From the NCBI RefSeq assembly GCF_000613185.1, contig NZ_CCBB010000001.1:930001-994000 (forward strand): a stretch of DNA of 64,000 nt, in the 5' to 3' direction. Position numbers and translations under genes: made by a program. Under the pieces are notes generated by a model. It ran no database searches. It was not told where the DNA came from and worked only from the letters and a program-made list of their open reading frames with translations. Below, in pieces: positions 3,697 through 56,438 of this stretch (position 1 is the first letter of the stretch; every line of letters begins with the position of its first letter). Source of the stretch: Mycolicibacterium cosmeticum (GTDB lineage: Bacteria > Actinomycetota > Actinomycetes > Mycobacteriales > Mycobacteriaceae).

Positions 3697-3713
3697 CGAG
3701 AATATCATTCTCG
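3697..3713. promoter_or_regulatory. Operator copy 1 of the GAGAAYNNNATTCTY family
   Basis: CGAGAATATCATTCTCG is a perfect inverted repeat with 7-bp arms and a 3-bp spacer. It lies 32 bases upstream of the GTG of the minus-strand ACAD pair. Five further copies of the same architecture occur in this window. Confidence 0.7.
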
Positions 3714-3819
3714 TCATTGGTGTCGCCATTCTCCGACAATCAGTATGGGGTTTTACCGAGCTGGCGCTGCGCGACTGACCAGCATGGTCTCTCACCAGCA
3801 CGGATGTAAGCGATCCGCT

Positions 3820-3836
3820 GGAGAACATTATTCTTG
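3820..3836. promoter_or_regulatory. Operator copy 2 of the GAGAAYNNNATTCTY family
   Basis: GGAGAACATTATTCTTG has the same 7-3-7 spacing as copy 1, with two substitutions from the symmetric consensus. It overlaps the likely -35 of the amidohydrolase operon that starts at 3915, so a bound repressor would block RNA polymerase. Confidence 0.62.
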
Positions 3837-3861
3837 CTTTGGAAGAACAAGGATCTACACT
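3834..3861 (+). promoter_or_regulatory. Candidate promoter of the amidohydrolase operon
   Basis: TTGCTT at 3834-3839 and TACACT at 3856-3861 are separated by 16 bases. The predicted start is near 3868, about 47 bases before the GTG at 3915. The -35 overlaps operator copy 2. Confidence 0.45.
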
Positions 3862-3914
3862 GGGAGCAACTACGGCCGGCCCGCCCGGCATCGTGATGCG
3901 AAGGATGGCCCCTG

Positions 3915-5024
3915 GTGAAGCAGTTCAGTGACGGTTCGACGGTGGTGGACGTCCCCGTCGTCGACGCCAGCGTGCACATCTTCTTCGGCTCCAACCGCGA
4001 CCTGCGGCAGAACTTCCTGCGTGAGCCCTTCAGCAGCCGCGGCTTCCCCGACTACGAGATGGATTGGTACGGCGCGCCCGGTGGCGAGTACCTGAAACAG
4101 GCGACGGGACCCAACCGCGAATACCCCGGCTCCGACGTCGGACTGGTGGCCGAGCACCTGTTCGCCGACCGGGGCGTCGACGTGGCGGTGTTGCACCCGA
4201 TGACGCGCGGCATCATGCCCGACCGCCACCTGGGATCGGCGATCGCAGCCGCCCACAACGACATGATGGTCACCCGCTGGCTGGAGCACGACGAGTTCGG
4301 TGAGCGGTTCCGGGGCACCATCCGGGTCAACCCCGACGACATCGCCGGCGCCCTGCGCGAGATCGAGAAGTACCGGGACCATCCGCGCGTCGTGCAGATC
4401 GGTGTGCCGCTGCAGTCCCGCGAGCTCTACGGCAAGCCGCAGTTCTGGCCGCTCTGGGAGGCCGCCGAGGCGGCCGGCCTGCCGGTGGCCGTGCACATCG
4501 AGGTCGGCGCCGGAATCCAGTTCTCCCCAACACCTTCCGGCAAGACCCGCACGCACGAGCAGTACCTCTCGTTCATGTCGCTGAACTACCTGTACCACCT
4601 GATGAACATGATCGCCGAGGGCGTGTTCGAACGGATGCCGAACCTCAAGATGGTGTGGGCGGACGGCGCCGCCGACATGCTCACGCCGTTCATCTGGCGG
4701 ATGGACTGTTTCGGGCGGCCGCACCTTGAGCAGACACCATGGGCGCCCAAAATGCCCAGCGACTACCTGCCCGGCCACGTCTACTTCGTCCAGGGAGCCT
4801 ACGACGGGCCGGGTGATGTCGACTTCGCCGGCGAGTGGTTCGGCTTCAGCGGCAAGGAGGACATGACGATGTTCGGGTCGAGCTACCCGCACTTCAACGC
4901 CGCCGAGCTGACCGTGCCGGCGTCCTACAGCGCCGAACAGCGCGACAAGCTGTGCTGGCGCAACGCCGCCGAGTTGTACGGCATCCACAGTCCGGTTCTC
5001 TCGCCCGTCGCGGGCGCACAGTAG
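3915..5024 (+). CDS. Amidohydrolase-2 family protein with altered active site
   Basis: 369 residues, GTG start. Whole-length similarity to ACMSD-type amidohydrolases is clear from the TIM-barrel order, a central PVAVHIEVG strand and the FGSSYPHFN segment near residues 320-328. The expected metal-site acids are missing: the N-terminal motif reads DASVH (residues 17-21) where the next gene has DSDVH, and the late FGSDYPH-type Asp is Ser323. It may therefore be a non-catalytic partner of the following amidohydrolase (20-base gap). It is first in the operon and controlled by the 3820 operator. Confidence 0.85.
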   Translation: MKQFSDGSTVVDVPVVDASVHIFFGSNRDLRQNFLREPFSSRGFPDYEMDWYGAPGGEYLKQATGPNREYPGSDVGLVAEHLFADRGVDVAVLHPMTRGIMPDRHLGSAIAAAHNDMMVTRWLEHDEFGERFRGTIRVNPDDIAGALREIEKYRDHPRVVQIGVPLQSRELYGKPQFWPLWEAAEAAGLPVAVHIEVGAGIQFSPTPSGKTRTHEQYLSFMSLNYLYHLMNMIAEGVFERMPNLKMVWADGAADMLTPFIWRMDCFGRPHLEQTPWAPKMPSDYLPGHVYFVQGAYDGPGDVDFAGEWFGFSGKEDMTMFGSSYPHFNAAELTVPASYSAEQRDKLCWRNAAELYGIHSPVLSPVAGAQ

Positions 5025-5044
5025 AGGCAGCGAGGAGTCCGCCG

Positions 5045-6187
5045 ATGACCGTCACCGCCACCCCCCGGGTCGCCCCGGCCGAGCGCATCACCGTGCGCTG
5101 CGTCGACTCCGACGTGCACCCGATGCCGCGCCGCGGTGAGCTGGCCCCCTACCTGCCCGAGCCCTGGCGCAGCAAGTATTTCGGCTCGCACCCGGTGGGC
5201 GAGCAGATCTACTACGACGCACCCGATTACGCGCACTCCTACGCCATGCGGGTGGACGCCTTTCCACCCGATGGCGAGTTCGCCTGCAGCGACCCGGAGT
5301 TCGCGTTCAAACAGCTGATCATGGAGGCCGGCTCGGATATCGCCATCCTGGAGCCCACCCATGCCGAGAGCCGGCTCAGCGAAGCCACCCACGCGTTCTG
5401 CCAGGGGGTGAACTCCTGGCTGGCCGAGAACTGGCTGGACGCCAAGAACAACTGGCACGAGCGCTGGCGCGGGTCGGTGTGCGTCGCCATCGAGGAGCCG
5501 GAACTGGCCGCCGCCGAGATCCACAAGTGGGCCCAGCACCCGTACATGGCGCAGGTGCTCATCAAGGCCGAACCACGACCCTCGTGGGGCGATCCGATGT
5601 ACGACCCGATCTGGACGGCCGCCACGGACGAGGACATCACGGTGTCCTGTCACCTGTCCCGCGGTTATTACGAGACGCTGCCGATTCCTCCGGTCGGGTT
5701 CCCCAGCTACAACCACGATTTCATGGTCACCTACTCGCTACTGGCGGCCAACCAGGTGATGAGCCTCATCTTCGACGGCGTCTTCGACCGCTTCCCCACC
5801 CTGCGCATCGTCTTCGTCGAACACGCCTTCACCTGGATCCTGCCGCTGATGTGGCGCATGGACGCCATCTACGAAGCGCGCAAGGGCTGGATGGACATCA
5901 AACGCAAACCCAGCGAATACGTCAAAGACCACATCAAGTTCACCACCCAGCCGCTGGATTACCCGGACGACAAAACCGAACTGACCCGCGCATTCGAGTG
6001 GATGGAATGCGACAAGATCCTGCTCTACTCCAGCGACTACCCGCACTGGACCTTCGACGACCCGCGGTGGCTGGTCAAACACCTCCCCGAACACGCCCGC
6101 GAGAACATCATGTTCCGCAACGGCATCGGCACCTACAAGCTCCCCGACACCGTGCCCGCCCTCGAGGGACAGGTTCGGGTGTTCTAG
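5045..6187 (+). CDS. Amidohydrolase-2 family protein (ACMSD-like), intact
   Basis: 380 residues from ATG 5045, chosen for the GAGGAG upstream and because the open frame before it is out of family. It keeps the metal-site pattern DSDVH (residues 21-25) and the late Asp331 in YSSDYPHWTF. Such proteins hydrolyse or decarboxylate C-N, C-O or C-C bonds in ring catabolism. It shares family and architecture with the preceding gene, so a heteromer is plausible. The stop TAG overlaps the GTG of the Rieske protein by one base. Confidence 0.88.
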   Translation: MTVTATPRVAPAERITVRCVDSDVHPMPRRGELAPYLPEPWRSKYFGSHPVGEQIYYDAPDYAHSYAMRVDAFPPDGEFACSDPEFAFKQLIMEAGSDIAILEPTHAESRLSEATHAFCQGVNSWLAENWLDAKNNWHERWRGSVCVAIEEPELAAAEIHKWAQHPYMAQVLIKAEPRPSWGDPMYDPIWTAATDEDITVSCHLSRGYYETLPIPPVGFPSYNHDFMVTYSLLAANQVMSLIFDGVFDRFPTLRIVFVEHAFTWILPLMWRMDAIYEARKGWMDIKRKPSEYVKDHIKFTTQPLDYPDDKTELTRAFEWMECDKILLYSSDYPHWTFDDPRWLVKHLPEHARENIMFRNGIGTYKLPDTVPALEGQVRVF

Positions 6188-7481: not shown

Positions 7482-7943
7482 CTACTCCAGCAGGATGCGC
7501 ACCTCGCTGTTCAACGACGCCTCCAACGCGGTGTGGATCCGGCTCTCCGGGATGCGTTCCATGTCGGCACGGCGCAACGTCACCTCCACGATGTCCCAGC
7601 CCTGCCCGCCGGGGAGCCGGTGTACCCGGCCGGTCAGGCCGAAACCGGCGAGCACTCCATGCGCGTCGTCATCGGTGCCGCGGCTCACGAAGGTCAGCAC
7701 GCCGGCCACCGGCCGGGTGCCGAATGCCTTGCTGCACAAGGTGACGGCTTCGTCGGTGAGCACTTCGGCGTGCACACCGGTCAGCAGCACCTCGATCTGC
7801 CGCCGGCCCGCGGGAAGCGCCGCGAGGTCGGTGGCCACCACGTCGACGCCCAGGGCACGCAGGGTAGCCAGGCCCTCGACCAGCCGGGCCGGCGTCAGCT
7901 GCCCGAACGGATCCACGTCGACACGCACCACAGCGGTTCTCAC
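7482..7943 (-). CDS. Conserved hypothetical protein
   Basis: 153 residues from GTG 7943, which fits a leaderless transcript: TAGGCT (7956-7951 on the minus strand) ends 7 bases before the start codon. No catalytic motif was recognised. The protein has an alternating beta/alpha pattern (VVRVDVDPFG, VDVVATDLAAL, AGVLTFVSRG) and a helical C-terminus. It is soluble, with no signal peptide. It is divergent from the NuoF-like gene and converges on the hydrolase at 7475, so it is a single-gene unit. Function unknown. Confidence 0.65.
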   Translation of the reverse strand: MRTAVVRVDVDPFGQLTPARLVEGLATLRALGVDVVATDLAALPAGRRQIEVLLTGVHAEVLTDEAVTLCSKAFGTRPVAGVLTFVSRGTDDDAHGVLAGFGLTGRVHRLPGGQGWDIVEVTLRRADMERIPESRIHTALEASLNSEVRILLE

Positions 7944-7950
7944 GATCGCC

Positions 7951-7956
7951 AGCCTA
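7951..7956 (-). promoter_or_regulatory. -10 element for leaderless transcription of the 7482-7943 gene
   Basis: TAGGCT on the minus strand fits TANNNT and is 7 bases from the GTG, the spacing expected when the transcript begins at the start codon. Motif match only. Confidence 0.4.
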
Positions 7957-7991
7957 TCCGGATATGCGGCGCGGGAAGGGATCAGCCACCG

Positions 7992-9260
7992 ATGACCACC
8001 ACCACCGCAACGGATATCGCGACCGTCGTCTGGCCCGGCCTGACACCGCGCCTGCTCTCGGTCGGCCCCGAAAGCCTTTCCGACTACACCCGTTCCGGCG
8101 GATATCAGGATCTCGACGATCCGCGACGCTTGCTGGACGAGGTCGCCACGGCCGGCCTGCTGGGCCGCGGTGGTGCGGCGTTCCCGCTCGCGGTGAAGCT
8201 GCAAACGATGCGCGCGGCGCACCTCGCCGGGCGACCGACGGTTGTCGTCGCCAACGGCGAGGAGGGTGAGCCGGCGTCGGTGAAAGACCGTTGGCTGCTG
8301 CGTAACCGGCCGCATCTGGTGTTGGACGGGGTGCGGTTGGCCGCCCGGGTGATCGGCGCCGACCGCGCGTATGTGTACGTTTCGGATCCGCACGCGGCGG
8401 CCGCGGTGCACGCCGCGCTCGCCGAGGCCGACACCTCACCGCCGGTCACCGTGGTCACCGTCTACCCCGGCTATATCGCCGGTGAGGAATCGGCCGCGGT
8501 GCGCGTGATCAACGGCGGGCCCGCCAAACCCACCGACAAGCCGCCGCGGGTGTTCGAAGAGGGGGTGGCCGGGCGGCCCACGCTGGTGAGCAATGTCGAG
8601 ACGCTGGCGCACCTGCCGTATATCCAGCGGCACGGCGCGGAGGCGTTCCGTGCGCACGGCACCCAGGCGTCACCGGGTACCTTCCTGGCCACGGTCACCG
8701 GCGCGGGCCGGACGCCGGTGCTCTACGAGCTGCCGCACGGCACGCCCATTGCGGATCTGCTTGCCCTGCATGGTGTTTCCCCTGCCGAGGTGGCGGGACT
8801 GCTGATGGGTGGTTACTTCGCCGGGTTGCTCAACGCCACGGCGCTGAGCGCCGGCTTGGACCACGAGACGCTGCGCGCCCTCGGCTGTGGCCTGGGATGC
8901 GGAGCGATCGCGGTGCTCACCACGGACTGCCCGGTCGCCGTCGCCGCATCGGTGCTGGACTATTTCGACCGGGAGAACGCCGGGCAGTGCGGATCATGCT
9001 TCAACGGGACTGCCGCGATGGCCGCGGTGACCGGTGCGCTGCGTGCCGGCGCCGCCACCGCCGAGGACGTCGATCGGCTCCAGCGCTGGTCGGTGGTGCT
9101 GCGGGGACGCGGCGCGTGCGCGACGCTGGACGGCGCCGCCAACATCGCGGCCAGCCTGTTGGCCCAGTTCCCGGATCTCGTGCAGGCGCACCTGCACAGC
9201 CCGTGCGAGGGGTGCCGCTCCTTCGATGCCCGACGTCCCTTCGAGATCGAGGCCCTCTGA
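7992..9260 (+). CDS. Stand-alone NuoF-like NADH:acceptor oxidoreductase
   Basis: 422 residues from ATG 7992. NuoF hallmarks are present: GRGGAAFP (residues 59-65) and ANGEEGEP (87-94) for FMN/NAD binding, and GEESA near 164. The C-terminal iron-sulphur motif keeps C333, C336 and C376, but the first cluster Cys is Ala330; two extra Cys occur at 405 and 408. No other complex I subunit is nearby. Its stop overlaps a ferredoxin start by one base, so it probably passes electrons from NADH to that ferredoxin and on to a P450. Confidence 0.85.
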   Translation: MTTTTATDIATVVWPGLTPRLLSVGPESLSDYTRSGGYQDLDDPRRLLDEVATAGLLGRGGAAFPLAVKLQTMRAAHLAGRPTVVVANGEEGEPASVKDRWLLRNRPHLVLDGVRLAARVIGADRAYVYVSDPHAAAAVHAALAEADTSPPVTVVTVYPGYIAGEESAAVRVINGGPAKPTDKPPRVFEEGVAGRPTLVSNVETLAHLPYIQRHGAEAFRAHGTQASPGTFLATVTGAGRTPVLYELPHGTPIADLLALHGVSPAEVAGLLMGGYFAGLLNATALSAGLDHETLRALGCGLGCGAIAVLTTDCPVAVAASVLDYFDRENAGQCGSCFNGTAAMAAVTGALRAGAATAEDVDRLQRWSVVLRGRGACATLDGAANIAASLLAQFPDLVQAHLHSPCEGCRSFDARRPFEIEAL

Positions 9261-15901: not shown

Positions 15902-16099
15902 TCAGTTCCCTTCGGTGATGCTGATTGCTTGCTCCGGACACCATTCGACGGCATCCCTGACACCGGAGGCATATTCGTCGGGCACCTCGTCGAGAAGCAC
16001 CTCGGCGTAACCGCCGTCGGCCAGGGTGAAGACCTCGGGGCATGCCGTCAGACACATCCCGTGGCCCCGGCATCGGTCCTCGTCGACCGTCACCTTCAT
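15902..16099 (-). CDS. 3-Cys ferredoxin, partner of the minus-strand P450
   Basis: 65 residues. Ligands are Cys10 and Cys16 in CRGHGMC, with His in the fourth position, and Cys54 in VEWCPEQAI. An extra Cys20 follows. This is the CxxHxxC type common in mycobacterial [3Fe-4S] ferredoxins. The start overlaps the P450 stop by 4 bases. Confidence 0.93.
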   Translation of the reverse strand: MKVTVDEDRCRGHGMCLTACPEVFTLADGGYAEVLLDEVPDEYASGVRDAVEWCPEQAISITEGN

Positions 16100-17376
16100 G
16101 TGTCGAACTCGAGATGCAGGTCGATCAGGCCGCGCAGGATGAACGTCGGGATGTACCGGTAGTGACGGGCGTCGGCGGGACCGTGCTTGTCCTCCGCGAT
16201 CCGGATGTCGGTGGTCCGGTCGAGCAACCGCTCAAGGGCCACCTTGGTTTCCGCGCGAGCCAGCGGCGCGCCCGGGCAGCTGTGGATACCGCGCCCGAAC
16301 GCCAGGTGCTGGCGGGCGTTCTTGCGTGCCGGGTCGAAGGAGTCGGGATCATCGAACCGGCGCGGGTCCCGGTTGGCGGCGCCGTTGAGCACCATGACGG
16401 TGGTTCCCGAACCGAGTTCGGTGTCACCGACCGTGACCGGGCAGCGCGACAATCGGAAGTCACCCTTGACCGGGCTCTCGATGCGTAACGCCTCTTCGAT
16501 GAAATTCGGTATGAGGCCGCGGTCTTCCCGCAGCCGGGCTTGGATATCGGATCGCTCGGCGATGACCTTCAATGCCGTACCGAGCAACCGCACGGTGGTT
16601 TCCTGCCCCGCCGAGAAGACATTGGTGGCCACCCGGGCCACGTCCCCGACGTCGGGGATGGAGCCGTCCGGGAACGTGGCCTCGGCCATGCCGGTCAGCA
16701 CGTCGTCGCGCGGGTTGGCGCGCCGGTCCTGGATGTAGTCGGCGAAGATCCCGTACAGGAACTCCAGCGGGCTGTGCGCCAAGGCTTCGTCACCGGTTCC
16801 GCCGACGCCGCCGCCGGCATGGTTGCCGATGTTCTCGACGAACGAGTCCCGGTCTTCGTCGGGGATGCCGAGCAGGTCGGCGATCACCAAAAGGGTGAAC
16901 GGCCCGGCGAAGCCCTTGATGAATTCGCCCCGGCCGCCGTCGAGGAAGGTATCGAGCACCTCGTCGGCCAGCTTCCACATCGCGTCCTCGTTCTCCTTGA
17001 GGCGCTTGGGCGTGATCAGCCGCATCAACAGGGCACGGTGGTCGGTGTGCGTCGGCGGGTCCAGTGTCGGCAGCTGGTCGCTGAACGGCAGTTCGTCACG
17101 GTGCTTCTCGATGAGCGCGCTGACCTCGTCTTTGGACAGGCCCTCCAGCGGCACGGGGAACCCCGGGAACGGACCGGTGACCGACGTGACGGATGAGAAC
17201 GTGTCGGCATCGTTGTAGACCTGCACGGCCTCGTCCCAACCGGTCACCATGGTCACGCCGTACGGACCGTTCCGGTGCACGGGACAGCCGCCCCGCAGGG
17301 CCTCGAAGTAGGGGTAGGGATCCTCGACCAGCCGCGGGTCGCGGAAGAAGTCCAAGTCGGTCAAGCCGTCCGCCAT
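16096..17376 (-). CDS. Cytochrome P450
   Basis: 426 residues from ATG 17376; the frame stays open further upstream but that part crosses the operator. I-helix SAGQETTVRLLG (residues 255-266), K-helix E295-R298 in EEALRIESP, and the haem loop FGRGIHSCPGAPL with Cys367. It heads an operon with its own ferredoxin and a DUF1330 protein. Operator copy 3 lies 30 bases upstream, placing it in the putative GAGAAY regulon. Confidence 0.95.
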   Translation of the reverse strand: MADGLTDLDFFRDPRLVEDPYPYFEALRGGCPVHRNGPYGVTMVTGWDEAVQVYNDADTFSSVTSVTGPFPGFPVPLEGLSKDEVSALIEKHRDELPFSDQLPTLDPPTHTDHRALLMRLITPKRLKENEDAMWKLADEVLDTFLDGGRGEFIKGFAGPFTLLVIADLLGIPDEDRDSFVENIGNHAGGGVGGTGDEALAHSPLEFLYGIFADYIQDRRANPRDDVLTGMAEATFPDGSIPDVGDVARVATNVFSAGQETTVRLLGTALKVIAERSDIQARLREDRGLIPNFIEEALRIESPVKGDFRLSRCPVTVGDTELGSGTTVMVLNGAANRDPRRFDDPDSFDPARKNARQHLAFGRGIHSCPGAPLARAETKVALERLLDRTTDIRIAEDKHGPADARHYRYIPTFILRGLIDLHLEFDT

Positions 17377-17405: not shown

Positions 17406-17422
17406 AGAGAATCCAATTCTCA
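17406..17422. promoter_or_regulatory. Operator copy 3 of the GAGAAYNNNATTCTY family
   Basis: AGAGAATCCAATTCTCA: perfect 6-bp arms (GAGAAT and ATTCTC) around a 3-bp spacer. It is 30 bases upstream of the minus-strand P450 start. Confidence 0.68.
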
Positions 17423-17594: not shown

Positions 17595-18242
17595 ATGGCA
17601 GCCGCTCCCCGCCCAGACACATCTGACCGCGGTCAGCGTCGCGCCTCCCTCGCCCAGGCCCGGTCGAAAGAGACCAGGCGCCTGCTCGTGCAGGCCGCGA
17701 TGGCGTTGTGGCGCACCAACGGTTACGCGAACACCACGGTGGCCGACATCTGTAAGGCGGCCGGGGTATCGAAGGCCCTGTTCTACTTCTACTTTCCCCG
17801 CAAAGAGGATGTGCTGTTCGAGGTCGGCGTCATGTCCACGCGGTCGGCGCAACGCGTCGTCGCCGGCATGCTCGACGACGACTACGACGTCGCGGCGGTC
17901 ATCACCGCGGCCCTGTCGGACCTGGAACGCTCCATGGCACGCAATCCGCGCGAGTTGGTCATCGAGACCATCCTCGAGGGGTACCGCCACGAACACCGGA
18001 TCCTGGCCACCGGTGAATCGCCCGACCTGGACAGCGGCATGTTCACCGCACTGTTCGAGCGTGCCACCGCCGACGGCAAGCTGCCGGCCGGCACCGATGT
18101 CCCCCACCTGGCGTACCTGGCGATGACGTTCGTCAGCGAGGGCGCCCGGCATTGGGCGGCCGGCTCCTTCGGGGACCGCTCGTTCGCCGACGTGGTCGCG
18201 GCGGACATCCTCACCCTGATCGCCGGATACCGGAGGAGTTAG
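17595..18242 (+). CDS. TetR-family transcriptional regulator
   Basis: 215 residues. The helix-turn-helix is at about residues 45-75 (TTVADICKAAGVSKALFYFYFPRKEDVL), followed by a helical ligand domain with no assigned ligand. It is the first gene of a plus-strand operon with an acyl-CoA dehydrogenase, a kinase-like protein and a quinone reductase. Two TGACCNNGGTCA palindromes, one over the promoter and one over codons 10-14, suggest autoregulation. Confidence 0.93.
   Translation: MAAAPRPDTSDRGQRRASLAQARSKETRRLLVQAAMALWRTNGYANTTVADICKAAGVSKALFYFYFPRKEDVLFEVGVMSTRSAQRVVAGMLDDDYDVAAVITAALSDLERSMARNPRELVIETILEGYRHEHRILATGESPDLDSGMFTALFERATADGKLPAGTDVPHLAYLAMTFVSEGARHWAAGSFGDRSFADVVAADILTLIAGYRRS
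17623..17636. promoter_or_regulatory. Second TGACCNNGGTCA palindrome, inside the TetR coding start
   Basis: CTGACCGCGGTCAG is a perfect 14-bp palindrome over codons 10-14 of the TetR gene. Its core matches the 17551 operator, with centres about 70 bases apart. Confidence 0.5.
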
Positions 18243-27893: not shown

Positions 27894-28655
27894 ATGCTTC
27901 CGGTTGTTCGGCACGACGCCATCGTCGACGCGGTCAATGCCGCGTCGACGATCAGCACGGATGAGCTCGTCCGGATGCTCGGGGTCTCCGCCGAAACCGT
28001 GCGCCGTGACCTGGCCCTTCTCGAGGAACGCGGGGCGATCCGCCGGGTGCACGGCGGCGCCGCGACCGTCGCACCGCGCGGCGAGGAGCCGTCCTTCACC
28101 GAACGGGCCGGCATCCATCGACCGGCCAAATCGGAGATGGCCCGGCTGGCGGCCGGACTGCTCGAGTCAGGACAAACCGTCACCATCGACATCGGCACCA
28201 GCGCCGTCGAGGTGGCCAGGGCCATCCCGCACGGCTGGCGCGGCACCGTGGCCACGCCCTCGCTGCTGGTCGCCGTCGAACTGGCGGGCCGGCCCGGCAT
28301 CGACGTCCTGGTGTCCGGCGGACGCGTCCGTGGCGGTGATCTGGCCTGCTCGAACGGGCACGCCAAGGCGATGTTCACCGATCTGTACGCCGACATCGCG
28401 TTCATCGGGTCCGGCGGCGTGGACGCCACCGCCGGACTGACCGACTACCACCTCGACGAGGTGGACGCCCGCCGCACCATCATCGCCAACAGCGCCCGAT
28501 CGTTCATCCTCGCCGACTCGTCGAAGCTCGGTCAGATCGCACCCCATCGGGTGTGCGGACTGGCTGCGGTCAGCGGGCTGATCACCGAACGGGATTCCGC
28601 TCCGGCGGTCACCGCGGCCATCCGCGAGGCGGGAGGTGTCGTGCTGTCAGCGTGA
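27894..28655 (+). CDS. DeoR-family transcriptional regulator
   Basis: 253 residues from ATG 27894, with GGATGGG just upstream. The DeoR helix-turn-helix is at about 16-50 (ISTDELVRMLGVSAETVRRD), followed by the signature RRVHGGA and a DeoRC sugar-phosphate sensor domain (DIGTSAVEVAR, FIGSGGVDATAG, ILADSSK). Family members sense a phosphorylated sugar or polyol. It is immediately upstream of a permease-kinase-dehydrogenase operon, so its inducer is probably the product of that kinase. Confidence 0.93.
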   Translation: MLPVVRHDAIVDAVNAASTISTDELVRMLGVSAETVRRDLALLEERGAIRRVHGGAATVAPRGEEPSFTERAGIHRPAKSEMARLAAGLLESGQTVTIDIGTSAVEVARAIPHGWRGTVATPSLLVAVELAGRPGIDVLVSGGRVRGGDLACSNGHAKAMFTDLYADIAFIGSGGVDATAGLTDYHLDEVDARRTIIANSARSFILADSSKLGQIAPHRVCGLAAVSGLITERDSAPAVTAAIREAGGVVLSA

Positions 28656-30235: not shown

Positions 30236-31659
30236 CGGTGCTGGCCATCGATCAGGGCACCTCGGGCACCAAGGCCATCGTGGTGGACCCCGCCGACGGC
30301 GTCTGCGGGGTCGCCGAGGTGCCGGTGCACCCGCGGTATCTGGACGGAGGCGGGGTGGAGCAAGACCCCGGCGAGCTGTTGGAGTCGGTCCTGGCGGCCG
30401 GGCGCGCCGCCGTCGCCGAGGCGCACCGGCCCATCGCGGCGGTGTCGCTGGCCAATCAGGGCGAGACGGTGTTGGCCTGGGACCCGGCCAGCGGACGCCC
30501 ACTGACCCAGGCCATCGTCTGGCAGGACCGCAGAGCCGAAGCACTGTGCTCGGAACTGTCCGAGCACCGCGAAACCCTGACGGCACGAACGGGCCTGGTG
30601 CTCGATCCCTATTTCTCCGCACCCAAGATGGCGTGGCTGCGCCGCAACGTCGAGTCCGCGGGTGTCGTGACGACCTCGGACACCTGGCTGCTGCACCAAC
30701 TGACCGGCGAGTTCGTCACCGATGCCACCACCGCCAGCCGGTCGCTGCTGACCGACCTCGGCGGCGACGGCTGGAGTGCCGACCTGCTCGCCCTGTTCGG
30801 GCTCGCCGGGGAGTCGATGCCGAGGATCGCCGGGAACGACGAGATCGTCGGCGCCACTTCGGCATTCGGAGGCGATGTTCCCGTCGGCGGTATCGTCGTC
30901 GACCAGCAGGCGGCATTGCTGGCCGAAGGCTGTCTGGCGGCGGGCACCGCGAAATGCACGTTCGGTACCGGCGCCTTCCTGCTGGCGAACACCGGCAACA
31001 CGCCGGTGCTCTCCAGCACCGGGCTGACCTCGTCGGTGGCCTGGCGAGTGGCCGGGCGCGACACCTTCTGCGTCGACGGGCAGGTCTACACCGCCGCATC
31101 GGCGGTGCGCTGGCTGGCCTCGCTCGGCATCATCACCGGCGCCGCCGACCTGGACGCTGTCGCCGCCGCGGACAACGCCGGTGTGCTGTGTGTCCCCGCC
31201 CTGGCCGGCCTGGCCGCGCCGTGGTGGCAGTCGGGTGCCACCGCAACGTTTTCCGGGATGACGCTGTCCAGTGAACGCGGCCACCTGGTGCTGGCGCTGT
31301 TGCAGGGCATCGCCGCCCAGATCGGGGAGCTGGTGACCGCCATCGGACCGCAGACCACACTGACCCGGCTGCGCGCCGACGGCGGGCTGACCCAGTCCAG
31401 GGTGCTCATGCAGGCGGTCGCCGATATCTTGCAAGTGCCCGTCGACGTATACCCGTCACCACATGCCACGGCACTGGGCGCCGCGGCGCTGGCCCAACTG
31501 AGCCTGCATCCCGCCCGGGGGCTGCCCGGAGTCGTCCCGCACTGGTCGGCTTCGGCGAGTTACGAACCGGCCTGGAGCCCCGAGCGTTCCGCCGAATTCC
31601 GTTCGCTGTGGCGAGCCTTGGCCTCCACCACCTACCCGCACCCTAGGAACCCCGAGTGA
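30232..31659 (+). CDS. FGGY-family carbohydrate kinase, glycerol-kinase-like
   Basis: 475 residues. Both FGGY domains are present: IDQGTSGTKAIV at the N-terminus, VWQDRRA, and LDPYFSAPKMAWLR, which matches the glycerol kinase active-site region, then KCTFGTGAFLLAN in the second half. It would phosphorylate glycerol or another short polyol. It lies upstream of a GlpA-like dehydrogenase, as in glycerol or erythritol use. The APC transporter makes a simple glycerol role uncertain. Confidence 0.9.
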   Translation: MTVLAIDQGTSGTKAIVVDPADGVCGVAEVPVHPRYLDGGGVEQDPGELLESVLAAGRAAVAEAHRPIAAVSLANQGETVLAWDPASGRPLTQAIVWQDRRAEALCSELSEHRETLTARTGLVLDPYFSAPKMAWLRRNVESAGVVTTSDTWLLHQLTGEFVTDATTASRSLLTDLGGDGWSADLLALFGLAGESMPRIAGNDEIVGATSAFGGDVPVGGIVVDQQAALLAEGCLAAGTAKCTFGTGAFLLANTGNTPVLSSTGLTSSVAWRVAGRDTFCVDGQVYTAASAVRWLASLGIITGAADLDAVAAADNAGVLCVPALAGLAAPWWQSGATATFSGMTLSSERGHLVLALLQGIAAQIGELVTAIGPQTTLTRLRADGGLTQSRVLMQAVADILQVPVDVYPSPHATALGAAALAQLSLHPARGLPGVVPHWSASASYEPAWSPERSAEFRSLWRALASTTYPHPRNPE

Positions 31660-33077
31660 ACACCACCCATGACGTCGCCGTGATCGGCGCCGGTATCGTC
31701 GGCGCGGCCATCGCCCGCGAACTGTCCGGCCACCAACTGTCGGTGGCGTTGCTCGACGCCCGAGATGATGTCGGCGACGGCACCAGCAAGGCCAACACCG
31801 CGATCCTGCACACCGGGTTCGACGCCAAACCCGGCACGTTGGAATCCGCGATGGTCAGCCGCGGCTATCGGCTGCTGTCCGAATACGCCCGCCACACCGG
31901 CATCCCGATCGAGCACACCGGCGCCATCCTGGTCGCCTGGGACAACGAGCAGCTCGACGCCCTGCCCGGCTTGCGCGACAAGGCCGTCGCCAACGGCTAT
32001 CGGCACTGCGAGATCATCGACGCGGCAGAGGTCTATCGGCAGATTCCGCACCTCGGCCCCGGCGCCCTGGGCGGGTTGACCGTCCCCGACGAGTCGATCA
32101 TCTGCACGTGGACGGTCAACCTGGCACTGGCCACCGACGCCGTGCACCGAGGCACCACCCTGCTGCGGGGCCACCGCGTCGAAAGCGTCGACGTGGGACC
32201 GGAGTTCACCACGCTGCACACCACCGCCGGGCCGGTCACCAGCCGCTGGGTGGTCAACGCGGCGGGGCTGGGTGCCGACGTCGTCGACGCCCGGTTCGGC
32301 TTCGAACGGTTCACCGTGACACCACGGCGCGGCGAGCTGATCGTGTACGACAAGCTGGCGCGCCGGCTGGTCGACAAGATCGTGTTACCGGTCCCCACCG
32401 CCCGTGGCAAGGGGGTGCTGGTGAGCCCGACCATCTACGGCAACGTCATGCTGGGACCGACCTCCGAAGACCTGCAGGACCGCACCGCGACCGGCACATC
32501 CGAGGCGGGATTCGAGTTCCTGCTGGACAAGGGTCACAAGCTGATGCCCGATCTGCTCGCCGAAGAGGTGACCGCGACGTACTCCGGCTTGCGCGCCGCC
32601 ATCGACCACGGCGACTACCTCGTGGCCCCCGACGCCGCCCAGCGGTACCTGCTGGTGGGCGGCATCCGGTCCACGGGCCTGACCGCCGGTATGGCGATCG
32701 CCGAACACGTCGTGAATGAATTGCGTTCGGCAGGACTGGATCTCGTACCCAAGCATGAGCTCCCGGAGCCGCCGCGGATGCCGAACCTGGGTGAGGCGTT
32801 CATCCGCCCGTACCAGGACGCCGACCGCATCGCCGCCGACCCCGCGTACGGCAAGATCGTCTGCTTCTGCGAGCGGGTCACCGCGGGTGAACTGCGCGAC
32901 GCCTGCCGCTCCCCCATCCCCCCGGCAGACCTCGACGGCCTGCGCAGGCGCACCCGCGTCATGAACGGGCGTTGCCAGGGCTTCTTCTGCGGCGCCGAAG
33001 TCCAGGAGTTCCTGGACGCCACGCCGACCGGCGCGGTGCACGCACGCACCACCCATCCCGAGGAGATCGCACTGTGA
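31656..33077 (+). CDS. FAD-dependent glycerol-3-phosphate-dehydrogenase-like enzyme with BFD domain
   Basis: 473 residues, GTG start overlapping the kinase stop. N-terminal FAD Rossmann motif VIGAGIVGAAIA (residues 8-19), a DAO/GlpA-like fold to about 365, then a BFD-type [2Fe-2S] domain with CFC in KIVCFCERVT and C-x4-C in GRCQGFFCGA. It would oxidise the phosphorylated polyol and pass electrons through the cluster to the next flavoprotein. Similar kinase/GlpA/flavoprotein sets occur in glycerol loci of other bacteria. Confidence 0.88.
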   Translation: MNTTHDVAVIGAGIVGAAIARELSGHQLSVALLDARDDVGDGTSKANTAILHTGFDAKPGTLESAMVSRGYRLLSEYARHTGIPIEHTGAILVAWDNEQLDALPGLRDKAVANGYRHCEIIDAAEVYRQIPHLGPGALGGLTVPDESIICTWTVNLALATDAVHRGTTLLRGHRVESVDVGPEFTTLHTTAGPVTSRWVVNAAGLGADVVDARFGFERFTVTPRRGELIVYDKLARRLVDKIVLPVPTARGKGVLVSPTIYGNVMLGPTSEDLQDRTATGTSEAGFEFLLDKGHKLMPDLLAEEVTATYSGLRAAIDHGDYLVAPDAAQRYLLVGGIRSTGLTAGMAIAEHVVNELRSAGLDLVPKHELPEPPRMPNLGEAFIRPYQDADRIAADPAYGKIVCFCERVTAGELRDACRSPIPPADLDGLRRRTRVMNGRCQGFFCGAEVQEFLDATPTGAVHARTTHPEEIAL

Positions 33078-34318
33078 GCACCACCAAGACCGTCGACGTC
33101 GTGATCGTCGGCGGCGGACCGGCCGGTCTCACCGCGGCGGCCGAACTCGCCCCCGACCTCGATGTGGTCGTGCTGGAACGGGAGTCGGCAGCCGGTGGTA
33201 TACCCCGGCACAGCGACCACCCGGGATACGGCATCCGCGACCTCAGACGTTTCCTGAGCGGCCCCGAGTACGCCCGCCGGCTGGTCCGCCGGGCAACCCA
33301 CGCCGGCGCCACCATCCGCACCGACACCATGGTGACCGGCTGGGCAGGCGACCGCGCGCTGGAAGTCACCTCACCGCAAGGGCGGTACCGCCTCGACGCG
33401 GGTGCCGTCATTCTGGCGACCGGGGCCCGCGAGCGGCCCAGGCCGGCGCGGATGATCCCGGGCGACCGGCCGTCCGGTATCTACACCACCGGTCTCCTGC
33501 AGAACCTGGTTCATCTCAAGCACCGCGCCGTCGGCCGGCGTGCGGTCGTGGTGGGTGCCGAATTGGTCAGTTACTCCGCGGTTCTCACTCTCCGGCACGC
33601 CGGATGTGAGACCGTGCTGATGACCACCACGCACTCGTCGCCGGAGTCCTACGCGGTGTTCAACCTCGCCGGCCGCTCGCCGTTGTTGGGACTGGAGGTG
33701 GCCACCCGCAGCAGGGTGGCCCGCATCATCGGAAAGCCGGCCCTGGAGGCGGTGGAAGTCGAAGACCTCGACACCGGTCGGCGCCGCATCGTGGACTGCG
33801 ACACGCTGGTGCTGACCGGCGACTGGATTCCCGACAACGAACTGGCCCGTAGCGCCGGGCTGGACATGGACCCGAAAACCCTTGGGCCATTGACGGACAC
33901 CGCATTGCGGACCAGCCGTCCCGGCGTTTTCGCGGTGGGTAATCTGTTGCACCCGGTGGACACCGCCGATATCGCGGCGCTCGACGGGCAGCACGTCGCC
34001 GACCCGGTGCGGGCTCACCTGCGTGGTGTGACGGCCACCGAGGACGGGTTGCGGCTGCGGGTGCAGGCGCCACTGCGGTGGATCACCCCGGGCATCGTGC
34101 GCCCGGGCGACGACGCGCCGTCGCGTGGACGGCTGCTGTTGTGGACCGATCACCTGGTCCGCGTTCCGACGGTCACGATCCGCCAGGACGGCCGGGTCAT
34201 CGCCCGAAAGACGTTGCCCTGGCCGGCATCACCGGGGCGGGTGTTCCGGGTGCCGTCCCGTTTGCTCGACGGTGCGGACCCCGGGGGCGGACCGGTGACC
34301 GTCTCGGTCACCGGCTGA
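33074..34318 (+). CDS. NAD(P)/FAD-dependent oxidoreductase (partner of the GlpA-like enzyme)
   Basis: 414 residues, GTG start overlapping the upstream stop by 4 bases. FAD-binding VVIVGGGPAGLTAAAEL at the N-terminus, a mid NAD(P)-type region GRRAVVVGAELVSYSA, and a late FAD strand GVFAVGNLLHPVDTADIAA. It belongs to the class II disulphide-reductase-like flavoproteins that accompany BFD-containing dehydrogenases. It likely completes a two-flavoprotein dehydrogenase complex. It converges on the gene at 34321, leaving two bases between stop codons. Confidence 0.85.
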   Translation: MSTTKTVDVVIVGGGPAGLTAAAELAPDLDVVVLERESAAGGIPRHSDHPGYGIRDLRRFLSGPEYARRLVRRATHAGATIRTDTMVTGWAGDRALEVTSPQGRYRLDAGAVILATGARERPRPARMIPGDRPSGIYTTGLLQNLVHLKHRAVGRRAVVVGAELVSYSAVLTLRHAGCETVLMTTTHSSPESYAVFNLAGRSPLLGLEVATRSRVARIIGKPALEAVEVEDLDTGRRRIVDCDTLVLTGDWIPDNELARSAGLDMDPKTLGPLTDTALRTSRPGVFAVGNLLHPVDTADIAALDGQHVADPVRAHLRGVTATEDGLRLRVQAPLRWITPGIVRPGDDAPSRGRLLLWTDHLVRVPTVTIRQDGRVIARKTLPWPASPGRVFRVPSRLLDGADPGGGPVTVSVTG

Positions 34319-48541: not shown

Positions 48542-49840
48542 TCAGTCTTTGACGCCGCTCACCGCGCGGGCGCTGGCGGTGAAGTCGGCGACGCTCGAGC
48601 CGGCCCGGTCTTTTTGGTGGCTCAGCGCCTGGATCGAAACATCGTGTCCGGCAGCCTGTTTGCGCAGCGCGCCGACGGTCGCTTGCTCGCGCGGGATCTG
48701 CGTGAACGGGTCGAAGTGGTAGAGCCGCATGGCGTTCGCGTGGGTGATCTTGTCGATCTCGTCGTCGGGCACGTCGTAGGTGTCGAACACCGCGCCCAGT
48801 TCCTCGGGTGCGCCCGGCCACATGGAGTCCGAGTGCGGGTAGTCCATCTCCCAGCAGATGTTGTCGATGCCGATCATGTGCCGGTTCTTCACGCCGACGG
48901 GATCGGAGATGAAACATGTCATGAAGTGCTCCCGGAACACCTCGGACGGCAGCTTGCCGCCGAAGTCCTGGTGCGTCCAGGTGGAGTGCATCTCGTAGGT
49001 GCGGTCCACCCGATCCAGAAAGTAGGGAATCCAGCCGGTGCCGCCCTCGGACAGGGCGATCTTGAGGTCCGGGTAGGCCTTGATGGGGGCCGACCACAGC
49101 AGGTCGGCCGCGGCCTGCACGATGTTCATCGGCTGCAGGGTGATCATCACGTCCATCGGCGCGTCCGGCGCGGTGATGGCCAGTCGGCCCGACGATCCGA
49201 TGTGCACGTTCATCACGGTGTCGGTGTCCACCAGGGCATCCCACACCGGCTTCCAGTACTCCAGGTCATGGAAGCTCGGGTAGCCCAGGGCGGCGGGATT
49301 TTCGGTGAAGGTCAGCGAGTGCACGCCTTTCTCGGACACGCGGCGGATCTCGGCGGCGCACAGTTTCGGGTCCCAGATGGCCGGGATCGCCATCGGGATG
49401 AACCGGCCGGGATGCGAACCGCACCATTCGTCGATATGCCAGTCGTTGTAGGCCTGCACCAGGGCCAGCGAGAACTCGGCGTCCTCGGTGGCGAACAGCC
49501 GGGCGGCGAAACCGGGGAACGACGGGAAATTCATGGTGGCCAGCACGCCGCCGGCGTTCATGTCCTTGACCCGCTCGGCGGCGTCGTAACAGCCCTTCCG
49601 GATCTCGTCGAGGCCCTGCGGCTCCAGGCCGTACTCCTCCTTGGGCCGGCCCGCGACGGCGTTGAGCGCCACGTTGGGGATGACTGTGTCGCGGAACTGC
49701 CAGGTGTCGGATCCGTCCGGGTTGTGCACCAACCGCGGCGCTTCGTCCGCGTACTTGGCCGGCAGGTGGTTCTTGAACATGTCGGGCGGTTCGATGATGT
49801 GGTCGTCGACGCTGATCAGAATCATGTCGTCGTGGTGCAT
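48542..49840 (-). CDS. Amidohydrolase-2 family protein
   Basis: 432 residues. Metal-site start SVDDHIIEPPDMF (residues 10-22; Asp-Asp-His rather than HxH, common in the mycobacterial subgroup) and the late Asp in ICWEMDYPHSDSMWP. It is longer than ACMSD-like enzymes, with a C-terminal extension after about 370. It heads the minus-strand beta-oxidation run and is divergent from the Rieske oxygenase operon, suggesting one pathway. Confidence 0.88.
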   Translation of the reverse strand: MHHDDMILISVDDHIIEPPDMFKNHLPAKYADEAPRLVHNPDGSDTWQFRDTVIPNVALNAVAGRPKEEYGLEPQGLDEIRKGCYDAAERVKDMNAGGVLATMNFPSFPGFAARLFATEDAEFSLALVQAYNDWHIDEWCGSHPGRFIPMAIPAIWDPKLCAAEIRRVSEKGVHSLTFTENPAALGYPSFHDLEYWKPVWDALVDTDTVMNVHIGSSGRLAITAPDAPMDVMITLQPMNIVQAAADLLWSAPIKAYPDLKIALSEGGTGWIPYFLDRVDRTYEMHSTWTHQDFGGKLPSEVFREHFMTCFISDPVGVKNRHMIGIDNICWEMDYPHSDSMWPGAPEELGAVFDTYDVPDDEIDKITHANAMRLYHFDPFTQIPREQATVGALRKQAAGHDVSIQALSHQKDRAGSSVADFTASARAVSGVKD

Positions 49841-50049: not shown

Positions 50050-50066
50050 TGAGAATATGATTCTCG
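50050..50066. promoter_or_regulatory. Operator copy 4 of the GAGAAYNNNATTCTY family, over a -10
   Basis: TGAGAATATGATTCTCG with 6-bp perfect arms. TATGAT (50056-50061) inside it is a good -10 for the Rieske oxygenase operon, whose GTG lies 78 bases downstream of that element. Confidence 0.7.
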
Positions 50067-50138: not shown

Positions 50139-51476
50139 GTGGCATTTTTCCCGAAACCGGCTGCCGGCAGCTGGACCGAGAACTGGCCCGAGCTCGGGAC
50201 CGCCCCGGTCAACTACGAGGATTCGATCGACCCCGAGCACTGGAAGCTGGAGCAGCAGGCGATCTTCCGTAAGACGTGGCTGCAGATGGGCCGCGTGGAA
50301 CTGATTCCCAAGAAGGGTCGCTACATCACCCGCGAGCTGCCCTCGGTCGGGGCCGGCACGTCGATCATCATCGTCAACGACGGTGACCAGATCCGGGCCT
50401 TCTACAACCTGTGCCGCCACCGCGGCAACAAGCTGGTGTGGAACGACTACCCCGGCGAGGAGGTGTCCGGCAGCTGCCGCCAGTTCGTCTGCAAGTACCA
50501 CGCCTGGCGTTACGACCTCCAGGGTGAGCTCACGTTCATCCAGCAGGAACAGGAGTTCTTCGACATCGACAAGGCCGACTACCCGCTCAAGCCGGTGCGC
50601 TGCGAGGTCTGGGAAGGCTTCATCTTCGTCAACTTCGACGACGACGCGGTGTCACTGGAGGAGTACCTCGGCGAATTCGGCCAGGGCCTGAAGGGCTACC
50701 CGTTCCACGAGATGACCGAGCACTACAGCTACCGCTCGGAGATCAAGGCCAACTGGAAGCTGTTCATCGACGCGTTCGTCGAGTTCTACCACGCGCCGAT
50801 CCTGCACATGAAGCAGGCGGAGAAGGAGGAAGCCGAGAAGCTGGCCAAGTTCGGCTTCGAAGCCCTGCACTACGACATCAAGGGTGACCACTCGATGATC
50901 TCGTCCTGGGGCGGCATGTCGCCGCCGAAGGACCTGAAGATGGTCAAGCCCATCGAGCGCATCCTGCACAGCGGCCTGTTCGGTCCGTGGGATCGGCCCG
51001 ATATCAAGGGCATCCTTCCCGACGAGCTGCCGCCGGCGATCAACCCGGGCCGGCACAAGACCTGGGGCCAGGACTCGTTCGAGTTCTTCCCGAACTTCAC
51101 CCTGCTGTTCTGGGTGCCGGGGTGGTACCTGACGTACAACTACTGGCCGACCGGTGTGGACAGCCACATCTTCGAAGCGGACCTGTACTTCGTGCCGCCG
51201 AAGAACCTGCGCGAGCGTCTCTCCCAGGAACTCGCCGCGGTGACGTTCAAGGAGTACGCGTTCCAGGACGCCAACACGTTGGAAGCCACGCAGACCCAGA
51301 TCGGTACCCGCGCGGTGCTCGACTTCCCGCTGTGTGATCAGGAGGTGCTGCTGCGCCACCTGCACCACACCGCACACAAGTACGTCGACCGGTACAAGGC
51401 CGAACAAGCGGCCACGTCCAACGGCGCGAGCAACGGCGCCGCGAAGGCGTCGGAAAAGGAGCAGGTAAATGTCTAA
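50139..51476 (+). CDS. Rieske non-haem iron oxygenase, alpha subunit
   Basis: 445 residues, GTG 50139 after AGGAGAGG. The Rieske domain has C92-x-H94 (LCRHRGNKL) and C118-x2-H121 (VCKYHAWRY). The mononuclear iron site has D211, H218 and H223 in FIDAFVEFYHAPILH. It hydroxylates an aromatic or steroid-like ring using electrons from a reductase, but no reductase, ferredoxin or beta subunit gene is adjacent. The next gene may be an accessory protein. Operator copy 4 controls it. Confidence 0.94.
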   Translation: MAFFPKPAAGSWTENWPELGTAPVNYEDSIDPEHWKLEQQAIFRKTWLQMGRVELIPKKGRYITRELPSVGAGTSIIIVNDGDQIRAFYNLCRHRGNKLVWNDYPGEEVSGSCRQFVCKYHAWRYDLQGELTFIQQEQEFFDIDKADYPLKPVRCEVWEGFIFVNFDDDAVSLEEYLGEFGQGLKGYPFHEMTEHYSYRSEIKANWKLFIDAFVEFYHAPILHMKQAEKEEAEKLAKFGFEALHYDIKGDHSMISSWGGMSPPKDLKMVKPIERILHSGLFGPWDRPDIKGILPDELPPAINPGRHKTWGQDSFEFFPNFTLLFWVPGWYLTYNYWPTGVDSHIFEADLYFVPPKNLRERLSQELAAVTFKEYAFQDANTLEATQTQIGTRAVLDFPLCDQEVLLRHLHHTAHKYVDRYKAEQAATSNGASNGAAKASEKEQVNV

Positions 51477-55515: not shown

Positions 55516-55578
55516 CTTCTCCATCGCCGAGCGGTCCGGAAAGCGGCTTTCCCGGTAGCCCTTATGCAAAGGCGAAAA

Positions 55579-55595
55579 TGAGAATACTATTCTCA
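55579..55595. promoter_or_regulatory. Operator copy 5 of the GAGAAYNNNATTCTY family (most symmetric)
   Basis: TGAGAATACTATTCTCA is perfect over 7-bp arms. It covers the -35 position for a -10 TAGAAT at 55608-55613, upstream of TetR 55651. This is the strongest copy and its place suggests that TetR controls itself. Confidence 0.75.
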
Positions 55596-55607
55596 TCATG
55601 AGAAAGC

Positions 55608-55613
55608 TAGAAT
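55608..55613 (+). promoter_or_regulatory. -10 element of TetR 55651
   Basis: TAGAAT fits the mycobacterial -10. The start would be near 55620, followed by a GGAGGGGGG Shine-Dalgarno stretch and the ATG at 55651. Confidence 0.5.
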
Positions 55614-55650
55614 CTCCGACACGAGCGTACGGAGGGGGGCGAGCACCGCG

Positions 55651-56370
55651 ATGCCCAGGCGTTCTCCGGTACAGTCCACTCATGTTCTCCCGAATCGGCA
55701 GGCAGCTGAGCAGCCGGTGACCAGCGCAAACGAAGAGCCCGCTTGGAAGCAGCGTGCGGTCGAGCGGTCCATCAAGACCGCCAAACTCCGCGCCGCTCAG
55801 CGCGTGCAGCGTTTCCTCGACGCCGCCCAGTCGATCATCATCGAAAAGGGCAGCACGGACTTCACCGTGCAGGAGGTCGTCGACCGCTCCCGCCAGTCGC
55901 TGCGCAGCTTCTACCTGCAGTTCGACGGAAAACATGAGTTGCTGCTCGCCTTGTTCGAGGATGCGCTGAGCCGCTCGGCCGATCAGATCCGGGCCGCCAC
56001 CGCCAGCCAGTCCGATCCGCTCGACCGGCTCAAGGTCGCCATCGAGTTGCTGTTCGAGTCCTCACGTCCGGACCCCACCGCCAAGCGACCGCTGTTCACC
56101 GACTTCGCACCCCGCCTGCTGGTGTCGCACCCCTCCGAGGTGAAGGTGGCGCACGCTCCCCTACTGGCGCTGCTCACCGAGTTGATGGAGGAGGCCGCCG
56201 AAGCCGGGAAGCTGCGCCCGGGCGTCAACCCCCGCCGGATGGCCGCGATGACCATGCAGACCGTGATGTTCGTCGCCCAATCCAGTGGCAGCGACGACGC
56301 CACCAACAAGCCGATCTCCGCGCAAGAAGTCTGGGACTTCATCGCGCACGGTTTCGCCGGCCCCAGCTAG
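55651..56370 (+). CDS. TetR-family regulator, candidate master of the GAGAAY regulon
   Basis: 239 residues, ATG 55651 behind GGAGGGGGG; GTG 55717 is a possible shorter start. After a 40-residue basic or polar N-terminal extension, the helix-turn-helix lies at about 70-100 (FTVQEVVDRSRQSLRSFYLQFDGKHELL). C-terminal helices follow with no assigned ligand. Operator copy 5 overlaps its promoter and copy 6 lies just downstream before the SDR operon. This makes it the best candidate to bind all six sites. Confidence 0.9.
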   Translation: MPRRSPVQSTHVLPNRQAAEQPVTSANEEPAWKQRAVERSIKTAKLRAAQRVQRFLDAAQSIIIEKGSTDFTVQEVVDRSRQSLRSFYLQFDGKHELLLALFEDALSRSADQIRAATASQSDPLDRLKVAIELLFESSRPDPTAKRPLFTDFAPRLLVSHPSEVKVAHAPLLALLTELMEEAAEAGKLRPGVNPRRMAAMTMQTVMFVAQSSGSDDATNKPISAQEVWDFIAHGFAGPS

Positions 56371-56421
56371 TCGCCGCCGGTCCCCGCATGCCTTCCGGCG
56401 CAGGGTTACCGCCATACCGCA

Positions 56422-56438
56422 TGAGAACGACATTCTTC
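56422..56438. promoter_or_regulatory. Operator copy 6 of the GAGAAYNNNATTCTY family
   Basis: TGAGAACGACATTCTTC: same 7-3-7 layout with the C/T variants also seen in copy 2. It lies 122 bases before the SDR start. Confidence 0.6.

Follow-up and report, generated by a model that had tools for sequence, protein, structure and literature searches.

Six 17-bp Palindromes in a Catabolic Region of Mycolicibacterium cosmeticum Are Very Probably Operators of One Autoregulated TetR-Family Protein

Introduction

KstR (Rv3574/MSMEG_6042), the regulator of the cholesterol regulon, acts through the operator TnnAACnnGTTnnA, whose half-sites are 2 bp apart and which partly overlaps the -10 element (PMC1995591; this and the other systems named here are described from the available parts of the papers cited). 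KstR2 recognises AnCAAGnnCTTGnT, at sites 22-82 bp before starts and 22-39 bp for four of five (PMC3068626), and BkaR is a mycobacterial TetR autorepressor of a coenzyme A (CoA)-ester pathway with the motif GTTA(N)T(N4)A(N)TAAC and about 10 genes (PMC3920632). Here we analyse a 64,000-nt stretch of Mycolicibacterium cosmeticum ("the window"; contig NZ_CCBB010000001.1, C1 below, positions 930,001-994,000), in which six copies of a 17-bp inverted repeat stand next to catabolic genes. Very probably the repeats are true switches beside the starts of genes, and a single repressor-type protein encoded close by would read them. We propose, with a probability of roughly 87%, that they are the operators of an autoregulated TetR-family protein encoded at 55651-56367, which would control a large catabolic gene set.

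The described systems resemble this one in part. KstR, like the 55651 protein, is an autoregulated TetR protein with a short palindrome before many lipid-type catabolic genes (PMC1995591), but its spacer is 2 bp as against 3 bp here, the half-site is another one and KstR-type places lie elsewhere in the same genome. KstR2 is likewise a TetR autorepressor with sites in divergent promoters, but it has its own motif and a smaller set, 3 sites and 15 genes, as against the 11 sites found here (PMC3068626). Judged by eye, none of those 11 sites matches the KstR2 operator or the BkaR operator. The bile-acid cluster of Nocardioides simplex also has a predicted palindrome over a steroid-type cluster, Lcin1, but its letters are TCCCGGT[C/G]ACCGGGA (PMC7593942). 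The CYP150A5/CYP190A3/CYP188A3 region of M. marinum likewise has CYP150 family P450s beside small ferredoxins; the available text of PMC6237146 describes no regulator or operator there. The predicted sites of Rv0081 include the 8-mers GAGAATTT and GAGAATTC (PMC4757040), which are not the spaced palindrome.

The first-pass annotation of the window had called the regulon unreported. In the literature searched we found no paper with any of five spellings of the motif, the logos of PMC4482099, a survey of 30 mycobacterial TetR genes that gives its motifs as images, being unread; nor did we find an account of the regulon in the literature on TetR surveys, on KstR3, on mycofactocin, amidohydrolase and mce clusters, on P450 families, on terpenoid clusters or on M. 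marinum loci. The operators of KstR, KstR2, BkaR and Lcin1 differ from the repeat. The claim therefore holds within the literature searched and is not absolute. What emerges is a large TetR regulon that is apparently undescribed and appears to be common to many environmental mycobacteria.

Results and Discussion

The Repeats in the Window and in the Genome

Six 17-mers sit exactly at positions 3697, 3820, 17406, 50050, 55579 and 56422 of the window, and all have the layout GAGAAY-NNN-ATTCTY with a 7-3-7 arrangement, so that the coordinates and the common layout given in the first-pass annotation were right for every one. Four have perfect 6-bp arms (3697, CGAGAATATCATTCTCG; 17406, AGAGAATCCAATTCTCA; 50050, TGAGAATATGATTCTCG; 55579, TGAGAATACTATTCTCA), and at two the arms form an imperfect pair, GAGAAC...ATTCTT (3820, GGAGAACATTATTCTTG; 56422, TGAGAACGACATTCTTC). 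The strict search pattern, GAGAAYNNNRTTCTY, gave 10 strand hits in the window, which correspond to the six sites and no further places, as against a mean of 0.06 strand hits and a largest value of 2 in 100 dinucleotide shuffles of the window. In the 144-kb region that contains the window, GAGAAT as the half-site yields 7 perfect palindromes and the 59 other permutations of its letters together yield 0; in the best 80 named loci, defined below, the GAGAAT palindrome occurs 152 times and any other permutation at most once. Both comparisons uphold the earlier judgement that such sites are very unlikely to arise by chance.

Each site of the window is intergenic by our gene calls, which come from our own GC-frame script and not from a trained caller, and the offsets to the next start are 30-79 bp, in keeping with the earlier statement that the sites lie upstream of operon starts. 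Two predicted operators share the divergent promoter of an acyl-CoA dehydrogenase (ACAD) pair and an amidohydrolase operon. The perfect one (3697..3713) is 33 bp before the ACAD start at 3664 on the minus strand, and the imperfect one (3820..3836) is 79 bp before the amidohydrolase start at 3915 on the plus strand; in the relatives G099 and G147, too, the main site is accompanied, as at 3820, by a weaker one at a distance of about 122 bp. The predicted operator at 17406..17422 stands 30 bp before a CYP150-like cytochrome P450 gene (start 17376, minus strand), and that at 50050..50066 lies between an amidohydrolase gene (minus strand) and a Rieske oxygenase operon (plus strand), 73 bp before the start of the latter at 50139. 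The predicted autoregulatory operator at 55579..55595, a perfect 14-of-14 palindrome, precedes the TetR gene (start 55651) by 56 bp, and the imperfect predicted operator at 56422..56438 precedes the gene of a mycofactocin-coupled short-chain dehydrogenase/reductase (SDR; start 56516) by 78 bp, both values by subtraction; later alternative starts give 122 and 195 bp instead. Directly after the autoregulatory site, at 55600-55616, there is a second, longer imperfect repeat (GAGA...TCTC, 17 bp) that is well conserved in the named loci and might serve as a promoter element or as another half-operator.

For the strict pattern the whole 6.46-Mb genome has 11 sites (19 strand hits), as against 0 for its reversed control, and the same gene calls place every one of the 11 between genes; the intergenic fraction, 0.105, takes no account of the higher A+T of intergenic DNA. 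Nine of them lie within 113 kb, from C1:903,083 to C1:1,015,912, which includes the window. A matrix scan of the surrounding 144 kb returned 15 places above 8 bits, 13 of them intergenic, and none in the reversed sequence; as sites from this region, besides those from relatives, went into the matrix, its top scores there are partly circular.

The TetR-Family Protein and the Conservation of Its Sites

The proposed reader of all sites is the TetR-family regulator encoded at 55651..56367 on the plus strand (alternative start GTG at 55717). A TetR helix-turn-helix is present N-terminally (PF00440, 30.1 bits, cutoff 24), and the C-terminal part reaches 24.4 bits on TetR_C_43, below the cutoff of 27. 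Its AlphaFold2 model is nearly all helical with a mean confidence (pLDDT) of only 63, and its relatives of solved structure are weak, the best PDB match having 35.2 bits. QSLRSFYLQFDGKHELLLALFEDAL, a segment spanning the recognition helix, is identical in eight of eight aligned orthologs. Two genomes (G022 and G096) have a second regulator copy of about 60% identity with the same site before its gene, and the copy of G022, which was aligned, has nearly the same recognition helix. Three further genomes of this genus (G283, G328 and G357) hold two close copies each, with 78-80% identity to the query.

Orthologous promoters were compared in named loci, the best 80 TetR orthologs (at least 80 exist) with 84-92% identity, nearly all labelled Mycobacterium or Mycolicibacterium and one an uncultured Mycobacteriaceae. 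A strict site lies 71-80 bp before the TetR start in all 80. In an alignment centred on the site, 81 of 81 sequences agree in the 12 bases of the arms and in two of the three bases of the spacer (rows were picked by the strict pattern near the expected place; all passed and none was dropped), and the 40 bp before the site were mostly variable. The counterpart of the 50050 promoter, before the amidohydrolase gene, has a strict site in 71 of 71 loci, and the ortholog of the ACAD gene 1464..2639 is preceded by a strict site in 57 of 57, which is the regulator's own site, divergently shared, in the loci read (L129, G147, G052). For one ACAD gene (932639) no locus could be assessed. Only 5 of 75 loci have a site in the 420 bp before the Rieske gene, but all 71 loci with 1.1 kb of upstream sequence have one within that distance, because a small gene stands between, as seen in L129, the sole such locus read in detail. 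The SDR site (56422) scores at least 15 bits on the matrix in 35 of the 41 loci with the same TetR-SDR order, that is, with an SDR within 1.5 kb after the regulator.

Site-by-site reading covered our genome and seven relatives from four genera. After overlap duplicates had been merged, contexts shorter than 45 bases dropped and two places at the contig end of G147 left out (they look like copies of two others), 81 distinct sites remained, 80 of them intergenic. Among the 76 intergenic sites with a start called within 400 bp, 46 lie 17-50 bp before the nearest start. The TetR promoter and the promoter of an AMP-binding enzyme and ferredoxin have a site in all eight genomes, the ACAD pair, one amidohydrolase and one SDR in seven each, and the CYP150-like P450 in four, all of this genus (our genome, G147, G099 and G052). 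The motif is therefore neither equally frequent inside genes nor absent from orthologous promoters, the two outcomes that the first-pass annotation had named as counting against a regulon.

Motif and regulator are also inherited together. In a family survey of 151 genomes an ortholog, taken as a best match of at least 66% identity, was found in 33 (a 34th genome with only a 27% match was excluded) and the strict motif in 41. The motif occurs in 32 of the 33 genomes with the ortholog and in 9 of the 118 without (Fisher 1.8e-23, kinship ignored); those nine carry one copy each, and on a rough estimate from base composition chance alone would give a few such single copies. Within the five genera in which genomes with and without the ortholog both occur (g9, g11, g22, g23 and g28), the motif is present in 19 of 20 genomes with the ortholog versus 3 of 22 without it, again one copy each. 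An order sample of 249 genomes gave an ortholog at E<=1e-40 in 30, of which 28 belong to this genus (our own genome included), two to another genus of the family and none to genera outside the family; among the misses listed, seemingly in order of kinship, there is one genome of this genus without the regulator. We replicated the association with a looser pattern, GAGAAYNNNRTTCTC, on the 19 same-genus genomes new in the order sample and on G098 of genus g28. The 18 new same-genus genomes with the ortholog have 6-12 sites each and the one without has 1, and the reversed control matched once in each of 3 of the 20 genomes, all three among the 18. Depending on the strictness of the pattern, 3 to 15 sites were counted per regulator-bearing genome of the genus. 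A plasmid-borne regulator was considered as well and rejected; the plasmid search gave only one partial match of 27.5%.

The co-occurrence, the site before the regulator gene in 80 of 80 loci and the recurrent targets strongly support, on sequence grounds, the earlier claim that a single regulator coordinates these genes. Taken together, conservation, co-inheritance and the failure of the local rivals to track the motif (below) make another reader improbable.

Proposed Mechanism

The layout agrees with that of dimeric TetR autorepressors such as KstR and KstR2. In the mechanism that we propose, a TetR dimer would bind the 17-bp palindrome T-GAGAAT-NNN-ATTCTC-A, and the operator would probably overlap the -10 element of core promoters close to starts. 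In the promoter of the regulator itself two spacer bases are fixed as A and T, and the centre is TACTAT or TAGTAT (TATTAT in L105), which fits a TANNNT-type -10 element. The protein would repress its own gene together with some nine or more transcription units, the majority of which are spread across about 113 kb, until a pathway intermediate, perhaps a CoA thioester, released it and the whole set came on. It is analogy with the TetR family that suggests repression and its relief by a ligand, which may be a CoA thioester; binding by the 55651 protein, and repression rather than activation, are predicted.

Alternative Explanations

The protein could instead be an activator, or a repressor at some units and an activator at others. 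For 29 of the 76 sites the nearest called start is more than 50 bp away, which would suit activation as well, but the 46 sites at 17-50 bp are placed as in the KstR2 repressor regulon, where the distance is 22-39 bp for four of five starts (PMC3068626); we regard either role as unlikely. A still smaller chance is left to another local regulator, either the TetR-family protein encoded at 17601-18239 next to site 17406 or the IclR-type protein at C1:1007835. Both lie divergently beside a site, in our genome or in relatives, but at E<=1e-40 the first is found in 4 of the 151 genomes and the second in 16, as against 41 with the motif and 33 with the 55651 ortholog, and the four IclR matches in genus g10 are in genomes that lack the motif.

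It is very improbable that the sites belong to KstR, KstR2 or a KstR3-like steroid regulator as a distant arm of the cholesterol regulon. The KstR half-site TAGAAC does resemble GAGAAC/T, and steroid genes encode enzymes similar to those of the stretch, namely P450s, ACAD pairs and proteins like KstD and HsaD, but the spacing of TnnAACnnGTTnnA (PMC1995591) and the letters of AnCAAGnnCTTGnT (PMC3068626) differ from those of the window sites, and the 55651 protein scores 19 bits on the KstR model NF033703, whose cutoff is 280. KstR-type places number 63 in the genome (reversed control 30), with none on C1 between 828,883 and 1,209,537, a weak point, as their density predicts only about one in that interval. 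The ortholog of M. neoaurum ATCC 25795 (L085) differs in gene setting from KstR3: it stands between an ACAD pair and an SDR and not in the atf1-chsH4-chsE6-kstR3 operon reported in the available text of PMC10398937. Least credible of all is a reading of the repeats as attenuator or terminator hairpins in RNA, or as palindromes that arose by chance because intergenic DNA is richer in A+T. Perfect intergenic inverted repeats with a 3-nt loop might recall either, but the 59 permuted half-sites of equal composition gave 0 against 7, Rfam has no match in the window, and the sites are common to divergent promoters and co-inherited with one regulator.

Several observations weigh against control of all these genes by the 55651 protein. 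One genome with the ortholog (G098) has no strict motif; a degraded 10-of-14 match stands before its regulator gene, and the looser pattern finds 2 sites. Three others (G141, G076 and G092) have the ortholog and a single strict site. Relatives are not independent, which makes the p-values too small, and absence of the ortholog means none among the 11-18 candidates scored per genome; the absence of rival regulators was likewise judged on 11-22 scored candidates per genome. The 40 bp after the autoregulatory site are largely conserved too, so that conservation is not confined to the operator. The SDR site at 56422 is weak here and the least conserved: of 78 loci, only 29 have a site in the 420 bp before the gene. 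Finally, the annotation of the enzymes does not fix a substrate.

Genes after the Sites and a Possible Pathway

Directly after the sites the scores on NCBIfam models are far under the cutoffs, with the exception of the mycofactocin-coupled SDR. The predicted target of site 3697 is an ACAD of the small-subunit type (2642..3664, minus strand; all profile models below cutoff), followed by its partner (1464..2639, minus strand; by eye). On the other side, a PF04909 amidohydrolase (3915..5021, plus strand) is the first gene of a run to about 15156, which continues with a Rieske ferredoxin, a hydrolase, a NuoF-like protein, a ferredoxin, a thiolase/OB protein, two HIBADH-like proteins, a P450 and a ferredoxin, some of them assigned by eye. 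The NuoF-like protein (7533-9257; Complex1_51K and NADH_4Fe-4S) stands alone in this amidohydrolase/P450 run, near small ferredoxins, and might be the link by which NADH supplies the P450 ferredoxins with electrons. The P450 after site 17406 (16099..17376, minus strand) has CYP150A6 as its best solved relative (6dcd, 499.8 bits). A stretch at 27894-34318 with a DeoR-type regulator, a transporter-like protein, a sugar/glycerol-kinase-like protein and two flavoprotein genes (by eye) has no site and breaks the catabolic stretch.

From site 50050 an amidohydrolase (48545..49840, minus strand) begins a minus-strand run of an ACAD, an SDR, a CoA transferase, an enoyl-CoA hydratase, a thiolase and an ACAD (SDR, hydratase and last ACAD by eye). 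In the other direction the large subunit of a Rieske oxygenase (50139..51473, plus strand) begins a run to 55515 with a small protein, an amidohydrolase-type protein, a SnoaL-like protein and an ACAD pair. The mycofactocin-coupled SDR (56516..57403, plus strand) has 389.7 bits on TIGR03971 (cutoff 300); the profile begins at residue 20, and the true start may therefore be later. The next gene (57410..58480, plus strand) encodes an NAD-dependent epimerase/dehydratase-type protein (PF01370).

Five genome sites lie outside the window. One (C1:903083) precedes an amidohydrolase, one (C1:1013651) an SDR and a MeaB-like gene, and one (C1:1015898) an AMP-binding enzyme and a 2Fe-2S ferredoxin; judged by eye, that at C1:729315 lies about 200 bp before a gene resembling 2-oxoacid oxidoreductase, and that at C3:2113080, on another contig, about 21 bp before a second ACAD pair. 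The C1:729315 site is also present in G099, inside a 2.4-kb stretch of 78% DNA identity. Among weaker matrix places, C1:900307 stands before a protein without Pfam match that has a Mce-associated look (by eye), and C1:927397 and 927551 stand between an SDR and an aldehyde dehydrogenase, which heads a same-strand run with an MlaE permease and Mce-like genes. The mce genes, too, may be members of the regulon. A further weak place is C1:904735. Altogether the genes after the sites or in the same runs include four PF04909 amidohydrolases, a Rieske oxygenase and ferredoxins, ACAD pairs, thiolase proteins, ChsH2-type OB proteins, mycofactocin-coupled SDRs, AMP-binding enzymes and P450s.

It is plausible that the genes with sites act in one pathway, as the first-pass annotation had supposed. 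With low to moderate confidence we suggest that their common substrate is a bulky cyclic isoprenoid-like compound, or a set of related substrates, because of the enzyme set: a CYP150-like P450, KstD-like and HsaD-like proteins, a mutase, a Rieske oxygenase and ACADs. CYP150A5, of the same family as the P450 after site 17406, turns beta-ionone into 4-hydroxy-beta-ionone (available text of PMC6237146). For some of these enzymes, which lie in the same stretch, no link to a site is evident in our own genome. They are two flavoproteins similar to KstD, a hydrolase of HsaD type that is accompanied by an MhpA-like hydroxylase, and a B12 mutase; among solved structures the mutase is closest to 2-hydroxyisobutyryl-CoA mutase (509.8 bits, versus 466.9 for methylmalonyl-CoA mutase). 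More tentatively, and with less than even confidence, we can picture a complete undescribed pathway of environmental mycobacteria for an isoprenoid-type ring compound with quaternary or gem-dimethyl carbons, in which a Mce importer, ring attack by P450, Rieske and KstD-like enzymes, heteromeric ACADs and a B12 enzyme like 2-hydroxyisobutyryl-CoA mutase, acting past the branched carbons, would be set under a TetR protein that senses a CoA-ester intermediate.

Thus neither the regulator nor the substrate seems to have been described for a large catabolic programme found in environmental and opportunistic mycobacteria. The operator would provide a ready list of co-regulated genes and would gather annotations that now stand scattered, such as "acyl-CoA dehydrogenase", "amidohydrolase" and "P450", in a single set open to test; deletion of the one regulator gene should switch that set on without knowledge of the substrate being needed.

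The interval between the HsaD-like hydrolase and IclR genes (C1:1007594-1007835; L015 13594-13835) has a site in G052, G099 and G147, a strict one 20-22 bp before the HsaD-like gene. In our own genome this interval has no matrix match above 8 bits, and it may represent a lost or relocated member of the regulon. A split B12-dependent mutase and a MeaB-like GTPase are found at the edge of the regulon (L016 4335-6319 and L015 18749-19624).

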